From a virus, in the IMG/VR virus record IMGVR_UViG_3300046170_000204, positions 1 to 34,513 of that record: DNA of 34,513 bases; one strand, given 5' to 3'. Below the pieces are notes generated by a model. That model was not told where the DNA came from and searched no databases. It saw only the letters and a list, made by a program, of their open reading frames with translations. This document shows positions 6,816 through 34,513 of this stretch, piece by piece. The position numbers and the translations under genes were made by a program. Each line of letters begins with the position of its first letter. The stretch's first letter is position 1.

Positions 6816-7656
6816 ATGAGTACATCTATTAGTACAAGTTTCGTCACCATCTTTGATGCGGAAGTAAAGCAAGCCTATCAAAACGATAGAGCTTTAGCTG
6901 GTACAGTTCGTGAAAGAAGTGGCGTTCAAGGTAATACTTATAAGTTCAACAAGTTAGGATCAGGTGTAGCGAATTTACATATTCCACAATCTGACGTAAC
7001 TCCAATGAACTTAACACACACACAAGCAACAGCTACAATGTCTGATTACAATGCTGCTGAATATAGCGATATATTTACAAACGGCAAAGTATTATTTGAC
7101 GAAAGAGCAGAGCTTGTAAAAGCAGTATCAATGGCTGTTGGTCGTAGAATGGACCAATTAGTAATTGATGCACTAGATGGAGCAGGGTACATCTTTAACA
7201 GTTGCTAACTCTATTGGTGGTACTACAACTAACTTAAACGTGGATAAAGTATTAGAAGCTAAAAAGTTAATGGACCAACAAGGTGTTCCAGCTGAAGATC
7301 GTTTCTTCTTATGTCATGCTAATAACATGGCTGCGTTCTTAGACGATAGTGATGTAAAAACTATTGATGTCAACACAACTAAAGCATTAGCTCAAGGAAC
7401 TGTTGATTCATTCTTAGGTTTTAAATTCATTATGGTTGGCGATAGAACAGAAGGCGGACTAGCTGTTGATGGTTCATCTGACCGTACATGTTTAGCTTGG
7501 CATAAAAATGCTTGTGGTCTTGCTATTAACATGGATAAGAAAACTGAAATTAACTATATTGCTGAGAAATCATCGTTCCTAGTGAACTCTATGTTCTCTG
7601 CTGGATCTGTTGGTATTGATACAGCTGGTATAGTTGAAGTCACTTGTCGTGAATAA
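6816..7656 (+). CDS. Major capsid protein (interrupted by a 1-base insertion)
   Basis: The reading frame is broken: 6816-7208 encodes the N-terminal 124 or so residues and the rest continues in the next frame to 7656. Removing one G from the GGG at 7185-7187 joins them as ALDGAGTSLTVANS and gives a 279-residue protein. The sequence matches a podovirus coat family: TSFVTIFDAEVKQAYQ at the N-terminus, TVRERSGVQGNTYKF, a YNAAEYSD segment and GRRMDQLVIDAL. A GGAG ribosome site precedes ATG 6816. The break lies mid-protein, so it is not a T7 gene 10-type programmed C-terminal extension. A sequencing or assembly indel is the simplest explanation. Confidence 0.88.
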
Positions 7657-27412: not shown

Positions 27413-29242
27413 TTAAAATTGGTTGGTGTTTTCTTCTTGTTGTTTTGGCAACCATAAATATTGTTTGCCTTTGGCTGATCCTGCAAATAATACCTTGTTG
27501 TCTGCCATTAATTTTTCTAATACTTTACTAAAATTTTTAGCTTTGGTACTGCCTAACCCATCAAACAATTCCAATGCTTGCTCTCGTAAATCACTACGTG
27601 TAACTGTAAGTTGTCCTTTAGGTACGTCAGCATGACTACTGCTATCACCATTCAATAACATCTTAGCTATTAAATCTAACAACTCTTGGTGTTTGTTCAT
27701 GCGACTTGGATTCTGATCGATCGTTGCTACCAACGATTGTCCACCTAAAAAATCTATCTTCTGCATTTCAAATTGCATTTGTTCAAACGGTTCACAATCT
27801 TTCATCTTGTCTGAGGTCAACGTGCAAAATAAATCATCCTTAGCTACTTGTATGGATGTGTCCATCGCAGCATAGATAGCTGATGATCCACGATACTGAC
27901 TGCCTGACTTACCTGAGTGATGCACAATCATACATGTTGCACCTGTGGCTTCACGAAACTTATCTAAGTTATTAATAATCTTAGACATTTCAGTTGCGCT
28001 GTTTTCTTCACTGCCAGCCGAGCAACGTGCCAAGGTGTCAATTATCAGTAGCTTTGGTTGCAATCGGTACATACTTACATCCATCAGCAGATCGTCAATC
28101 GTTCTTTCTTCATTGATATCCAATGCCATTGGTATCAAGTAAAAGTTATCAATCTTTTTCTGGTAATGTTCATACCATGCTGTGGTTCTATTCTTAAAAC
28201 CACTGGAACCTTCAGCTGCTACATACAATACAGTACCTGGACTGACCCTGCTACCATGAAAGTCTTTGCCTGTTGCAATACACAAAGCAAAGTCTAAGGC
28301 AACAAATGACTTGTAACTACCACTGTGTCCCCAGATCATTGCCAAACTATTCTCTTGCAGAAAACCATCCACTAAAAATTTAGGCGGTTGCATGGTCATA
28401 ATATCATCGTAGGACATGAATCGGTAATTAGGTTCTAGCTCCATCTCCTCATAATTTTCTGGACATTTTTTGACCAATTGTTTTAACGTTTCCACCGTGT
28501 GTCCTGATTCAAACCAGTCGGTAATATCATTGCAATGTTCACCCTGACCTTCAAGCCAACAGTGTTTGACCACTTTGGCTATGGGTTTTAGTTTGCCATA
28601 CAATTCACGTACTCGTTTCATCCCTGCCTTGTCGTGATCTCCCACGATAAAAACACGTTTGTCTTTGAAATACGGCATACATTCATCAGGCATATCACTG
28701 GCACCACCGAAGGTTGTTGCAATTAAGCCACGCATCCTCATGGTGTCGGCATCTTTTTCACCCTCACATAAAAAGATAAACTTATTGCCTGCTTTGGTTA
28801 ACTCGTGTAACGCATAAGGTACACGCTCTACACCATTCAGCGTGTAACCTTTGTCTGATTTCCAACGAAAGTCTTTGGGTTCCATGCGTAACTTCTGATA
28901 CAACACTCTACCTTTTTCATCGGTGTAATCGTACTGTGCCAAGAGTACAGACTGGGCAGGTGGGGTACTAGCGTTTTGGGGGTTCTGCTCCAGTCCATAC
29001 CGTTCTTGCAATACACTGATGGGTTTTTCATCAGGGTAATAATGTCGTAATAAGTCAACACATCCACCACCAACACCATTCTCGTGATCGTAAAACGTAC
29101 CACTGTTGATGTTGATTACCTTAGATCCTTTGGCACCAAACCTTATCATGTCATTGCTTTGACTCGTCGGCTCACCAAATATATCTTGGGCTACTGGTAG
29201 AATGTAGTCCTTCCAATTGATATCATTAGAATTCATCGTCAT
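27413..29242 (-). CDS. Bifunctional primase-helicase (Toprim + RepA/RecA-type ATPase)
   Basis: A 609-residue replication protein. The N-terminal region (about 31-68, with YDHENGVGGGCVDLLRHYYP) is the substrate-binding part seen in phage primases, without zinc-finger cysteines. Toprim motifs follow: FLCEGEKDAD with E160 and VGDHDKAG with D202/D204. The helicase has Walker A GHSGSYKS (305-312), VLYVAAEGSSG and Walker B LLIIDTLAR (398-406), as in RepA/AAA_25 hexameric helicases. The C-terminus has a DNA-binding-like domain. It unwinds and primes phage DNA. No replicative polymerase gene accompanies it, so host polymerase is implied. Confidence 0.9.
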   Translation of the reverse strand: MTMNSNDINWKDYILPVAQDIFGEPTSQSNDMIRFGAKGSKVININSGTFYDHENGVGGGCVDLLRHYYPDEKPISVLQERYGLEQNPQNASTPPAQSVLLAQYDYTDEKGRVLYQKLRMEPKDFRWKSDKGYTLNGVERVPYALHELTKAGNKFIFLCEGEKDADTMRMRGLIATTFGGASDMPDECMPYFKDKRVFIVGDHDKAGMKRVRELYGKLKPIAKVVKHCWLEGQGEHCNDITDWFESGHTVETLKQLVKKCPENYEEMELEPNYRFMSYDDIMTMQPPKFLVDGFLQENSLAMIWGHSGSYKSFVALDFALCIATGKDFHGSRVSPGTVLYVAAEGSSGFKNRTTAWYEHYQKKIDNFYLIPMALDINEERTIDDLLMDVSMYRLQPKLLIIDTLARCSAGSEENSATEMSKIINNLDKFREATGATCMIVHHSGKSGSQYRGSSAIYAAMDTSIQVAKDDLFCTLTSDKMKDCEPFEQMQFEMQKIDFLGGQSLVATIDQNPSRMNKHQELLDLIAKMLLNGDSSSHADVPKGQLTVTRSDLREQALELFDGLGSTKAKNFSKVLEKLMADNKVLFAGSAKGKQYLWLPKQQEENTNQF

Positions 29243-29915
29243 CTGTATCTAACATAGCATCTAATTTCGCCATCTCGGCATCCACTTCAGCTTTGGTGTA
29301 AGGTATCGCTTTTTTTCTTTTATCGCCTTTTCCTAACCTGTCATCCATGTGTGGTGGTACATCTATATCATCAAACTGATTCTCGTTAGGTTTGCCTGGC
29401 ATTGATAGATCTGTTGTTTCGGTTACGTTTATTTCAGGTAAACCTTCAGGTCTGTCCACGTATTTAATCACTTCAAACTGAGGTACAAACCATTCACCTG
29501 CGTTACCGTTTTCTTTGATAGCTACAACTGGTATCTGTTTGTCATCAGGTCTGCCTTCTAAGTAACTGTTGAAGAATTTTTGTACTGCTTGTCCGACCAT
29601 ACCACTGTTGGAACCAAACTCACATAGTCCTATGTCTTTGGCAAACAATCTGATGCAAAATGTTTTCTTAAATTCATCACCAGGTTTCACGGGAAATGGC
29701 TTGTCGTGCTTAACCATTTGTGATTGTGGTGCTTGACCTTTTAATATTAGATTCCACCCCTTTTGCATGACCGCTAAGTCCATAACAACCTTACTTGGCA
29801 TATCAATTACATTGGTTTCACCATCACGTCTTAACTTCCATTGACCAGTGTTGGCATTAAACGTAAGTATGTTTGGGAATTGACTCCCACCTTCCATTCC
29901 AAAATCATTTAGCAT
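29226..29915 (-). CDS. Single-stranded DNA-binding-like protein
   Basis: The ATG at 29915 is chosen: it has GAGGGG at good distance and overlaps the previous gene by 11 bases, giving 229 residues. The core (about 10-165) is beta-rich with FNANTGQWKLRRDG, GWNLILKGQAPQ and FGSNSGMVGQAVQKFF. The last 70 residues are disordered and acidic, ending KLDAMLDTDDDEF. A core plus an acidic tail with a terminal aromatic is the hallmark of phage and bacterial SSBs, where the tail recruits partners. The place next to primase-helicase and exonuclease supports this. The core was not matched to a named family. Confidence 0.65.
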   Translation of the reverse strand: MLNDFGMEGGSQFPNILTFNANTGQWKLRRDGETNVIDMPSKVVMDLAVMQKGWNLILKGQAPQSQMVKHDKPFPVKPGDEFKKTFCIRLFAKDIGLCEFGSNSGMVGQAVQKFFNSYLEGRPDDKQIPVVAIKENGNAGEWFVPQFEVIKYVDRPEGLPEINVTETTDLSMPGKPNENQFDDIDVPPHMDDRLGKGDKRKKAIPYTKAEVDAEMAKLDAMLDTDDDEF

Positions 29916-30135
29916 CTTCTTTCCCCTCTGTTGTGTTTTGTTTCGCTTCAAACGTATCTAAAATTTGTTGCAATTCTGCAATATACAATTTTGTATGCAC
30001 AATGTCTTGTATTATTTCTTGCATGTTGCTGTTCATATCACTGCCGTCACGCAATTCACTTAGCTGTAAACTCATGTTGAGTTCCGCTAGTTTGGTGCGG
30101 TATTGCTGTAATATTATCTTGTATACATCAATCAT
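29905..30135 (-). CDS. Small helical protein, replication operon, 76 aa
   Basis: A 76-residue mostly helical protein with likely coiled-coil stretches (YKIILQQYRTKLAEL, HTKLYIAELQQILDTF) and an acidic, hydrophilic end. ATG overlaps the stop of the RHH-like gene by four bases. No family recognised. Its place between a DNA-binding protein and the SSB-like gene suggests an accessory role in replication or regulation. Confidence 0.6.
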   Translation of the reverse strand: MIDVYKIILQQYRTKLAELNMSLQLSELRDGSDMNSNMQEIIQDIVHTKLYIAELQQILDTFEAKQNTTEGKEDAK

Positions 30136-30314: not shown

Positions 30315-30589
30315 GCTTTTCCTTTTCTCAATATAGTTTGTATGTAATCCCTATTCTCATACACATCCAGTGGATTGATCTCCAGTACGGTGTAACCAAT
30401 GTCTGTCTTGTGTGTTAAAAAAGGGCGTTTGTTTTTGATTGCCTTGCTCGTAAAGCCTTGATAAAAAGCATTGGACAATCGTTTCTTGACCTCATAACTC
30501 AAGCCTAAGTAAAAATAGATAAATTCATCTTCGGTACAACCAAACAAATCTATTTCTAAATTCAATTCTTTATTTATTTTCTGTTTCAA
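30311..30589 (-). CDS. Hypothetical replication-operon protein, 92 aa
   Basis: A 92-residue protein with ATGA overlaps at both ends. It contains CTEDEFIYFYLGLSYEVKKR and FYQGFTSKAIKNKRPF followed by a beta segment TDIGYTVLEINPLDVYE. The two Y-L-G-L-S and K-x-x-R-P-F stretches are reminiscent of small nuclease-like or HNH-associated folds, but no catalytic set is complete. I do not recognise it. Confidence 0.55.
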   Translation of the reverse strand: MKQKINKELNLEIDLFGCTEDEFIYFYLGLSYEVKKRLSNAFYQGFTSKAIKNKRPFLTHKTDIGYTVLEINPLDVYENRDYIQTILRKGKA

Positions 30590-31140
30590 AATGGTATTTC
30601 CTCGCCGTCAAACTCTTGCGCTGTTGCTTTAAACTTTTTTTTCATGGCGTACTGCACTTCATCGTTACTGATTAACGTACACAGCTCTTGCATGGTGTAG
30701 ATTAACACCGACTTACCCTGATACTCTTGTTCCATTAATGTCTTGGTGTTGCGGTCTGGTACCACCATGATTTCATCACCGTTGTCTTTGGTAATGGAAA
30801 AGAAATCAATGTCAATGCGTTCCAGTCCTGACTCCAATGCTTTCGCAATTACAATATCATAACCTTTGTATAAAGCCTTCAAACTTGTCATCAACGCATC
30901 CCTTTTGGGTACGTGTTTCGGTCTGATTAAGAATTCTGTCAAGTTACGACACGTTACATCCTCTTGTTTCTTAATTTTGGTGTACAAACTTACCTCTAAC
31001 ACCGACATCACCCTCGCCCTGCCGTACTTTAGTAACTCCATGTACTTATCTTCAGTCCTGGATAGCTGTTGCAAAACTTCCTTGCCCATGTTGGTGCGTT
31101 CCAGTGCGGTTCGGTCTATTTCTGATATGTATAAGCTCAT
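30586..31140 (-). CDS. Replication-operon protein with SSB-type C-terminal tip
   Basis: A 184-residue protein. Residues 1-150 are mixed helix and strand (LQQLSRTEDKYMELLKYGRA, LTEFLIRPKHVPKRDAL), with no family recognised. The C-terminus AQEFDGEEIPF closely resembles the DDDIPF tip by which bacterial SSBs bind many host repair and replication proteins. The start has the TGGGGGAACT site directly before ATG, and the gene is coupled by four-base overlaps to both neighbours. It may be an SSB-like protein or an adaptor that presents an SSB tip. See the second SSB-like gene downstream. Confidence 0.55.
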   Translation of the reverse strand: MSLYISEIDRTALERTNMGKEVLQQLSRTEDKYMELLKYGRARVMSVLEVSLYTKIKKQEDVTCRNLTEFLIRPKHVPKRDALMTSLKALYKGYDIVIAKALESGLERIDIDFFSITKDNGDEIMVVPDRNTKTLMEQEYQGKSVLIYTMQELCTLISNDEVQYAMKKKFKATAQEFDGEEIPF

Positions 31141-31778
31141 AGTTCCCCCATAATTTCATGTAGTTTTGGTACTCGTTTGTATTGCTGTATAAAAGCTCGT
31201 GCTTTGGGGAATACTTGCTCGAATGTAACCTTGATGTCGTTTTCCCTCATATATTTTTCGTACTCTTGGTGGCTGTATTGCACTGGCTGTCCCAATGCGG
31301 ATGACACTGCGGTATTCAACACCGATAGATACTGCATATCCACAGGTTCTTGTTTGATACTGACCTCTTGCTCTGCTTGTTCAATATGTTCTTTCAAATG
31401 TTGTCTATCCATCTTGTTAAAGGCTACTACTGGTAGTTCCTCGTGGTTCGGCACTTCATCTCTGCCACCCCCCAAATACAATACTTGTCGTCTGCCTGTT
31501 TTCCACTTGGATAGCTGTCCTTTTTGAAATTTCTTTTCCAAATCTCGCATCAAGCCTAACTTCTTTAACTTGTCCATGTTATTCGCAACGGTGTTCTTGT
31601 CTTGCCCTGATCTCATACCAATAGATTCACACGTTGCAAACAATAACCCTTGTCGGTTGCTAAACGTACACATAGATATAAAGGTTAACAGTTCCCCCTT
31701 ACTGAGTTTCTTACCCAACTTACACACCCTAATAGGAAGGATACTGTAGACTGCGCCTTTATAATCTTCTTCGTTCAC
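31137..31778 (-). CDS. Winged-helix replication initiator-like protein
   Basis: A 213-residue protein starting at GTG 31778 with GGGGGGAAC upstream. The first 95 residues match the DNA-binding domain of phage and plasmid initiators: ILPIRVCKLGKKLSKGELLT, FATCESIGMRSGQDKNTVAN and LKKLGLMRDLEKKFQKG, a winged helix with helix-turn-helix. The rest is a flexible linker and a helical C-terminus with FPKARAFIQQYKRVPKL. It likely binds origin repeats, such as those at 32636-32665, and loads the primase-helicase. It could instead be a transcription factor. Confidence 0.65.
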   Translation of the reverse strand: MNEEDYKGAVYSILPIRVCKLGKKLSKGELLTFISMCTFSNRQGLLFATCESIGMRSGQDKNTVANNMDKLKKLGLMRDLEKKFQKGQLSKWKTGRRQVLYLGGGRDEVPNHEELPVVAFNKMDRQHLKEHIEQAEQEVSIKQEPVDMQYLSVLNTAVSSALGQPVQYSHQEYEKYMRENDIKVTFEQVFPKARAFIQQYKRVPKLHEIMGEL

Positions 31779-32328: not shown

Positions 32329-32504
32329 TTCATAGTACCTATGTGAAATTTCCAATTAAAGGCAATTCTACCCTCATTAATTAATTCTTTAAGTACATTT
32401 TCATCTTCTAATCCATAACTACCATAATAAGATGAATCTGCCATTGATTTAATGGTTAACCAGTTATCCACATAATCTAAATATATTTCTATTGCTGTTA
32501 GCAT
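32325..32504 (-). CDS. Small early protein, 59 aa
   Basis: A 59-residue frame starts at ATG 32504, with AGAGGGGT upstream, as first gene after the promoter at 32542-32570. It reads MLTAIEIYLDYVDNW, then MADSSYYGSYGLED and ends NWKFHIGTMK. Rich in Tyr and acidic residues, no family recognised. The stop overlaps the ATG of the membrane peptide. Confidence 0.55.
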   Translation of the reverse strand: MLTAIEIYLDYVDNWLTIKSMADSSYYGSYGLEDENVLKELINEGRIAFNWKFHIGTMK

Positions 32505-32541: not shown

Positions 32542-32570
32542 ATGCTACATCTAGTTTAATCTAGTGTCAA
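32542..32570 (-). promoter_or_regulatory. Sigma-70-like promoter for the replication operon
   Basis: On the minus strand there is a perfect TTGACA (32565-32570), a 17-base spacer and TAGCAT (32542-32547). The spacer holds two CTAG-containing direct repeats ten bases apart, one helical turn, which could be a regulator site. The first gene downstream starts at 32504. There is no gene for a phage RNA polymerase, so host polymerase is expected to read it. Confidence 0.65.
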
Positions 32571-32600
32571 TAGAAATATATAGTTTATTAGTTCAGCTTA

Positions 32601-32625
32601 GCATCATAAGCATTTGCTTATATGC
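32601..32625. repeat. Inverted repeat upstream of iterons
   Basis: GCAT, a bulged C, ATAAGCA, two-base centre TT, then TGCTTAT and ATGC. The arms pair over eleven bases with one bulge. It sits between the replication-operon promoter and the direct repeats and may be part of an origin or a regulator site. Confidence 0.75.
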
Positions 32626-32635
32626 GGTGCTGTGT

Positions 32636-32665
32636 TCAACATCGCATCAACATCGCAACATCGCA
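32636..32665. repeat. Three iteron-like direct repeats
   Basis: TCAACATCGCA occurs at 32636-32646 and 32647-32657, and AACATCGCA follows at 32657-32665. The copies are exact in their shared nine bases and stand nearly one helical turn apart, in a higher-GC patch of an AT-rich region. Arrays of this type bind replication initiators, and the initiator-like gene lies about 0.9 kb away on the same arm. Confidence 0.75.
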
Positions 32666-32701
32666 TCACCCCTTATACGAATAGGCTTGTGAACCGCATT
32701 G

Positions 32702-32780
32702 ACAAGGAAGGATAGCAAATTTGCACTTCAGCAAGTCCGCATGTGTATATTCACTGTAAGTGAATACATGCGTTCCTTGT
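32702..32780. other. Large nested inverted repeat (cruciform or structured RNA)
   Basis: An outer pair ACAAGGAA (32702-32709) and TTCCTTGT (32773-32780) encloses a short TTGC/GCAA stem and the palindrome GCAAATTTGC (32715-32724). It also encloses a long hairpin in which CGCATGT and ATTCACT (32738-32744, 32749-32755) pair with AGTGAAT and ACATGCG (32759-32772) around GTA, with one four-base bulge. The result is a possible three-way junction. It contains no credible reading frame. It could be a replication origin structure or a noncoding RNA. Confidence 0.6.
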
Positions 32781-32912
32781 GCCATGCTATGTTATGAGAT
32801 ATGTTGAACCAATTAAAACCGTTCCCCCCATGTGTACTATCATCAAAACAAAAATCATAAAATATATAAATTTATTAGAATATTAGAATATAAGTACATC
32901 AAATATATAAGA

Positions 32913-32940
32913 TAAAAAAAAGCCCTCATTTCTAAGGGCT
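32913..32940 (-). terminator. Rho-independent terminator of early cassette
   Basis: On the minus strand AGCCCT (32935-32940), an eight-base loop and AGGGCT (32921-32926) are followed by eight T (complement of A at 32913-32920). This is a canonical terminator. It closes the leftward cassette of small genes starting at 34143 and insulates the origin-like block. Confidence 0.9.
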
Positions 32941-34260: not shown

Positions 34261-34513
34261 CCCTATATATATGATTACAAACAACACCAATACACAAATA
34301 AACCAGTCATATATATAGAAATAATAGGCATATCTATAGAAATAATAGGCATATCTATATTAGCAAGCGCTTATACTATCATATATGTAATAAAATCAAT
34401 GACTTATATATTATTATTTATTCGCATAATCAATATTATGTTAACTAATCCAGGATATACTATCATTTTTCTGCAATCGACCTTCGGGGGGGCGCCGTCA
34501 CCCCTTACGTATA
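34261..34513. repeat. Right copy of terminal direct repeat
   Basis: It matches 1-242 at both ends but is 11 bases longer and has several different bases in the first 100. It ends right after the GC-rich block and CCCCTTACGTATA. The stretch 34144-34260 between it and the first early gene holds only the early promoter and AT-rich sequence. Confidence 0.9.
34318..34359. repeat. Two tandem 21-bp units in right terminal repeat
   Basis: Exact units at 34318-34338 and 34339-34359 repeat the motif also found at 48-88. A shorter, degenerate unit precedes them. Unit number and boundary differ between the two terminal repeats. Confidence 0.8.

Follow-up and report, generated by a model that had tools for sequence, protein, structure and literature searches.

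A conserved block of non-coding DNA in an uncultured oceanic virus probably serves this podophage as its origin of replication (ori), with iterons that would bind an initiator and a hairpin possibly used for priming. This reading accounts jointly for the candidate initiator sites, for a structure of use only in single-stranded DNA, for insulation from transcription and for the adjacency of genes for initiation. A short motif is clustered in non-coding DNA, its copies are kept at matching positions in relatives, and an initiator-like gene lies close by, as expected of an iteron origin. Podophages of the HTVC010P-like and methylophage-like kinds occur widely in the ocean, and we found no mapped origin for them in the literature searched. 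The block provides a precise origin candidate, with defined sites, a hairpin that can be tested pair by pair and two named candidate binding proteins. Its features are listed in Table 1.

Table 1. Positions of the block, its elements and the associated genes (strand: +, -, or. where none applies).
Feature	Position	Strand	Remark
Primase-helicase: TOPRIM-like primase and RepA-type (AAA_25) helicase, possible C-terminal winged helix	27413..29242	-	
Winged-helix HTH_36 / O-like protein, candidate iteron-binding initiator	31137..31778	-	Pfam and PHROG
Sigma-70 promoter TTGACA-N17-TAGCAT, into replication operon	32542..32570	-	
Conserved non-coding block, iteron family and hairpins, putative origin core	32595..32815	.	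Kept in relatives
Second hairpin (AGCTTAGCATCATAAGCATTTGCTTATATGCGGTGCT), about ten pairs	32595..32631	.	Folds in window and L002
Long-range inverted repeat TTCAACAT / ATGTTGAA enclosing block	32635..32808	.	
Three exact iterons TGCGATGTTG (minus sense)	32637-32646, 32648-32657, 32656-32665	-	
Bulged hairpin, 60 bp: GCAC/GTGC, AAG/CTT, GCATG/CATGC, TATTCACT/AGTGAATA	32723..32782	.	
Inverted iteron TGCTATGTTA	32785..32794	+	Invariant in all relatives
AT-rich tract, 13% GC, possible unwinding region	32840..32915	.	
Intrinsic terminator	32921..32940	-	Conserved in relatives

Genomic setting of the block

The window, by which we mean the whole stretch of 34,513 nt that was analysed, is a near-complete genome of a podophage infecting bacteria. 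Its two ends (1-242 and 34261-34513) overlap by ~250 bp with 93% identity, and sequence from relatives spans the junction between them. On this evidence the record is apparently complete, as a circular or circularly permuted map of ~34.26 kb, despite its classification as linear. A GC-rich motif, GGCGCCGTCACCCC, occurs in the shared end (at 220 and 34491) and was not found in the relatives examined. The structural genes resemble those of Methylophilales phage MEP301 (MW452941), the closest cultured relative in this part of the genome (connector 59% identity, tail tubular B 50%, terminase 65%), and more distantly those of pelagiphages. The major capsid gene (6816-7656) is split between two overlapping ORFs, one matching the first part of Pfam Phage_capsid_2 and the other the second, reflecting a frameshift, a sequencing error or a programmed shift.

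Genes are directed rightward up to ~25.8 kb, and the remainder consists of leftward replication genes. Cumulative GC skew, which the initial annotation had proposed as a check on the origin, has its minimum near position 254 and its maximum at 25.9 kb. These extremes track the switch in gene direction and not the block, and the measure, confounded by transcription, does not discriminate.

That the block is non-coding, as originally described, was borne out: no convincing ORF crosses it. Its GC content is 41.6%, compared with 13-30% in the flanks. Read along the leftward strand, the terminator is followed by the block, the promoter and the replication genes, a layout conserved in relatives, and from this arrangement the terminator is predicted to shield the block from upstream leftward transcription. 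The promoter noticed earlier proved to be a minus-strand sigma-70 element, whose -10 sequence is TATAAT in L003 and L004 and thus matches the full consensus there. A perfect 14-nt inverted repeat (32481-32494 / 32568-32581) joins the -35 region of this promoter to the operon's first small ORF. The AT-rich flank reported beforehand was found again in L002 and is shortened in L003 and L004. Pairing of the long-range inverted repeat is kept in relatives only with mismatches.

Conservation of the block in related contigs

Searches with proteins and DNA patterns recovered the block in six further contigs (five further sequences): L002, L089, L003, L004, L094 and L096. L002 and L089 are near-identical within the block, and the L096 block is partial, the contig end cutting through it. 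All of these relatives belong to one narrow clade, to which the known distribution of the element is confined. Between the window and L003/L004, identity over the block is 67-73%, and several adjacent small ORFs fail to align. On this comparison, the block appears to be under more selection than its neighbours.

A scan for the promoter sequence pattern revealed no additional blocks, and the block was not found in MEP301. Wider searches based on terminase, exonuclease and helicase returned many phages, none of which has the hairpin, and annotated plasmids gave no match to the block. Among phages, an Enterococcus phage gave one weak and partial match (E 0.03), which was treated as chance.

A family of iterons in both orientations

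The initial annotation had pointed to three exact nine-base iterons in tandem. The 9-mer AACATCGCA is indeed exact at 32638, 32649 and 32657, and it lies within an exact 10-mer, CAACATCGCA, at 32637, 32648 and 32656; with spacings of 11 and 8, the copies form an irregular cluster and not a regular tandem array. No 9-mer occurred three times within 40 bp in any of 100 genome-wide Markov simulations or 2000 block-only simulations, and this density was not found elsewhere in the genome.

The exact triplet is specific to the window genome, and the copies in relatives are degenerate. Across relatives the iterons generalise to a family, TGCNATGTTG, that occurs in both orientations and mostly at matching positions. 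At a match of at least 9/10, each block contains 4-7 copies, whereas the remainder of each contig predicts 0.03-0.18. Weaker copies (8/10) are located at 32594, 32623, 32628, 32716, 32780 and 32797. All complete relatives have one inverted site near one end together with three sites in the same direction, which are spaced by 8 and 11-12 and read TGC(A/T/G)ATGTTG or TGAAGTGTTG. A second, similar array is present in L003, L004 and L094 and is degenerate in the window.

Iteron variants differ by clade: the window and L002 have GCGATGTTG, and L003, L004 and L094 have GCAATGTTG and GAAGTGTTG. A difference between window/L002 and L003/L004 is also seen in the candidate recognition helix of the HTH protein. 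Judged from these sequences, the data are compatible with co-divergence of the sites and the helix, a comparison that involves two groups only. A perfect consensus DnaA box, TTATCCACA (32464-32472, within a small ORF ~120 bp from the block), was rejected as a candidate element; it is not there in any relative, and relatives contain no conserved DnaA box.

Clustered sites of this kind might instead form a multi-site regulatory region, at which a phage repressor or activator would bind the repeats to control the early minus-strand promoter downstream. The conserved promoter directly adjoins the block, which lies upstream of it, and the HTH protein is encoded within the operon that would be controlled. 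This explanation leaves the bulged covarying hairpin, the ~220 bp span and the insulation by a terminator unaccounted for, and we regard it as quite improbable. A regulatory role and an origin can also coexist, as they do in autoregulating plasmids.

A bulged hairpin supported by covariation

The longest conserved inverted repeat of the block is the bulged hairpin, whose stems and bulges are kept as their letters vary; the apical stem of L096, for example, is largely re-lettered. When six sequences were manually aligned on their structure, double compensatory changes were seen at 10 of 20 pairs; 119 of the 120 cells are Watson-Crick, one is broken and G-U is absent. Because this alignment was picked by hand to fit the structure, the count from the MAFFT tool is the safer figure. 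The untouched MAFFT alignment has 7 pairs changed on both sides compared with 2.3 after shuffling (0 of 500 shuffles as high), although the structure derives from the same sequences and the control therefore leans in its favour. Slid controls gave far lower values. A covariance model of the hairpin retrieves all relatives, which were its own input, at E values of 1e-17 to 1e-19, and gave no significant score at other loci.

Two other inverted repeats had been singled out earlier. The eleven-pair repeat is probably the second hairpin of Table 1; the corresponding region of L003, L004 and L094 has different arms, made up in part of inverted iterons. The 79-base repeat (ACAAGGAA/TTCCTTGT, with 7-bp cores) is present at 32702-32780 and is not itself conserved in relatives.

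The main rival to an origin is a structured non-coding RNA or an RNA leader encoded by the block, with the repeats as helix arms. Compensatory changes with asymmetric bulges are compatible with this, as are the minimum-free-energy z-scores of the block (-2.8 for the minus strand and -3.5 for the plus strand) and the long-range complementarity of its 5' and 3' parts, although the two-orientation repeat family accounts for much of that pairing. Several observations nevertheless make an RNA unlikely. Rfam has no family for the block, permissive thresholds yielding just terminator-like or chance matches. The minus strand is without a good promoter upstream of the block and has a terminator just before it. 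The lack of G-U among the 119 hairpin pairs, which were hand-chosen, is unusual for RNA. Moreover, the two strands fold about equally, and tallies of G-U and A-C pick no transcribed strand.

Comparison with relatives, which had been recommended at the outset, thus favours an origin through the conserved two-orientation repeat family and the covarying hairpin. The original proposal of an origin is supported in part; of its details, the exact triplet is confined to the window and the 79-bp repeat is not conserved. Counting against an origin are the shortening of the AT-rich tract in L003/L004, the restriction of the relatives to one narrow clade, the degeneracy of several iteron positions in the window, the lack of a conserved DnaA box, the displacement of the GC-skew extremes from the block and the marginal HTH_36 match with its poor model.

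Candidate replication proteins and a proposed mechanism

The initiator-like gene that had been noted near the block is real and conserved, about 0.8 kb away. Its product matches Pfam HTH_36 with E=1.4e-5 and 25.2 bits, barely above the cut-off of 25, and primosomal / O-like families of PHROG with E=2e-4 and 1e-3. Structure prediction gave a winged helix in a low-confidence model, and a fold search with this model returned nothing significant; TubR and AspA are among the weak matches, all with E > 0.05. As these two are centromere-binding winged-helix proteins, we considered that the block is a partition (centromere) site or else a packaging site. No ParA, ParM or TubZ-like protein was seen in the scanned ORFs, and the terminase genes lie about 2 kb off, across the genome junction, so that either role is very improbable. 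Nor was an HUH or relaxase protein found among the scanned ORFs.

In the primase-helicase, the helicase part matches RSF1010 RepA (1g8y, E=5.2e-5) and AAA_25 (E=4e-37), and the primase region matches DnaG/TOPRIM phage primases and not the RepB' type. Its C-terminus has an H-H-H-strand-strand pattern in a very low-confidence model; the structure model of the whole protein was set aside as too poor for use. The operon also encodes a RecE-like exonuclease and several unknown proteins, two of which (30586-31140 and 29226-29951) terminate in acidic tails (EEIPF and DDDEF), as single-strand-binding proteins do. At the expected position of the ribosome-binding site, several leftward genes between 31100 and 32240 (minus strand) carry an unusual GGGGGAAC-type sequence. 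No DNA polymerase was identified among the scanned proteins, and the phage therefore probably recruits the host replisome. In the paper on MEP301, no DNA polymerase is described and the replication genes listed include no primase.

If the block is the origin, the HTH_36 protein, or the C-terminal winged helix of the primase-helicase, would bind the TGCNATGTTG sites in the early phase of infection. Binding would melt the adjacent DNA and allow the RepA-type helicase to load, by which the hairpin would be exposed as single-stranded DNA. Priming at the hairpin could then be carried out by the fused primase or by the host primosome, and host polymerase III would presumably extend the primers because no phage polymerase was seen.

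Comparison with known origins

By analogy, the best reading is that the block works like RSF1010 oriV or the origins of P4 and lambda, without a claim of membership in any of these classes. The pRN1 origin is a stem-loop of which the shape alone is conserved (PMC4234260), and it resembles the block in this preference for shape over sequence and in its position near primase-helicase genes. Unlike the present system, pRN1 has an archaeo-eukaryotic prim-pol, an SF3 helicase and no iterons. The phage lambda origin (O, P) shares an O-like HTH protein, iterons and reliance on a host polymerase, whereas here the initiator gene does not contain the iterons, which precede the operon promoter, and the phage has its own primase-helicase. 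Phage P4 combines a TOPRIM primase, a helicase and possibly a C-terminal winged helix in one protein, alpha, and has short origin repeats (PMC4234260). In our phage, by contrast, the helicase is of the RepA-like AAA_25 type and a separate HTH protein is present.

The closest mechanism for the block, again by analogy, may be that of RSF1010 (IncQ). RSF1010 oriV has three and a half 20-bp direct repeats, whereas the repeats of the block are 10 bp long, irregularly spaced (8-11) and in both orientations. The primase here is of the TOPRIM type and fused to the helicase rather than RepB'-like, only one hairpin is strongly supported, and the genome is that of a podophage. We do not assign the block to the RSF1010 class, given the mismatch in repeat length and primase type. 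The likenesses are repeats together with a conserved hairpin, a RepA-type hexameric helicase, and genes for a DNA-binding protein and a primase near the origin. In RSF1010, RepC binds the iterons, RepA unwinds the DNA and priming takes place at the hairpins ssiA and ssiB (PMC4234260). A closer parallel, which we put forward tentatively as possible though doubtful, is an iteron-plus-hairpin origin of the RSF1010-like kind that would depend little on the host's DnaA and DnaG, and in which the hairpin would be a specific single-strand priming site for the fused TOPRIM primase-RepA-type helicase.
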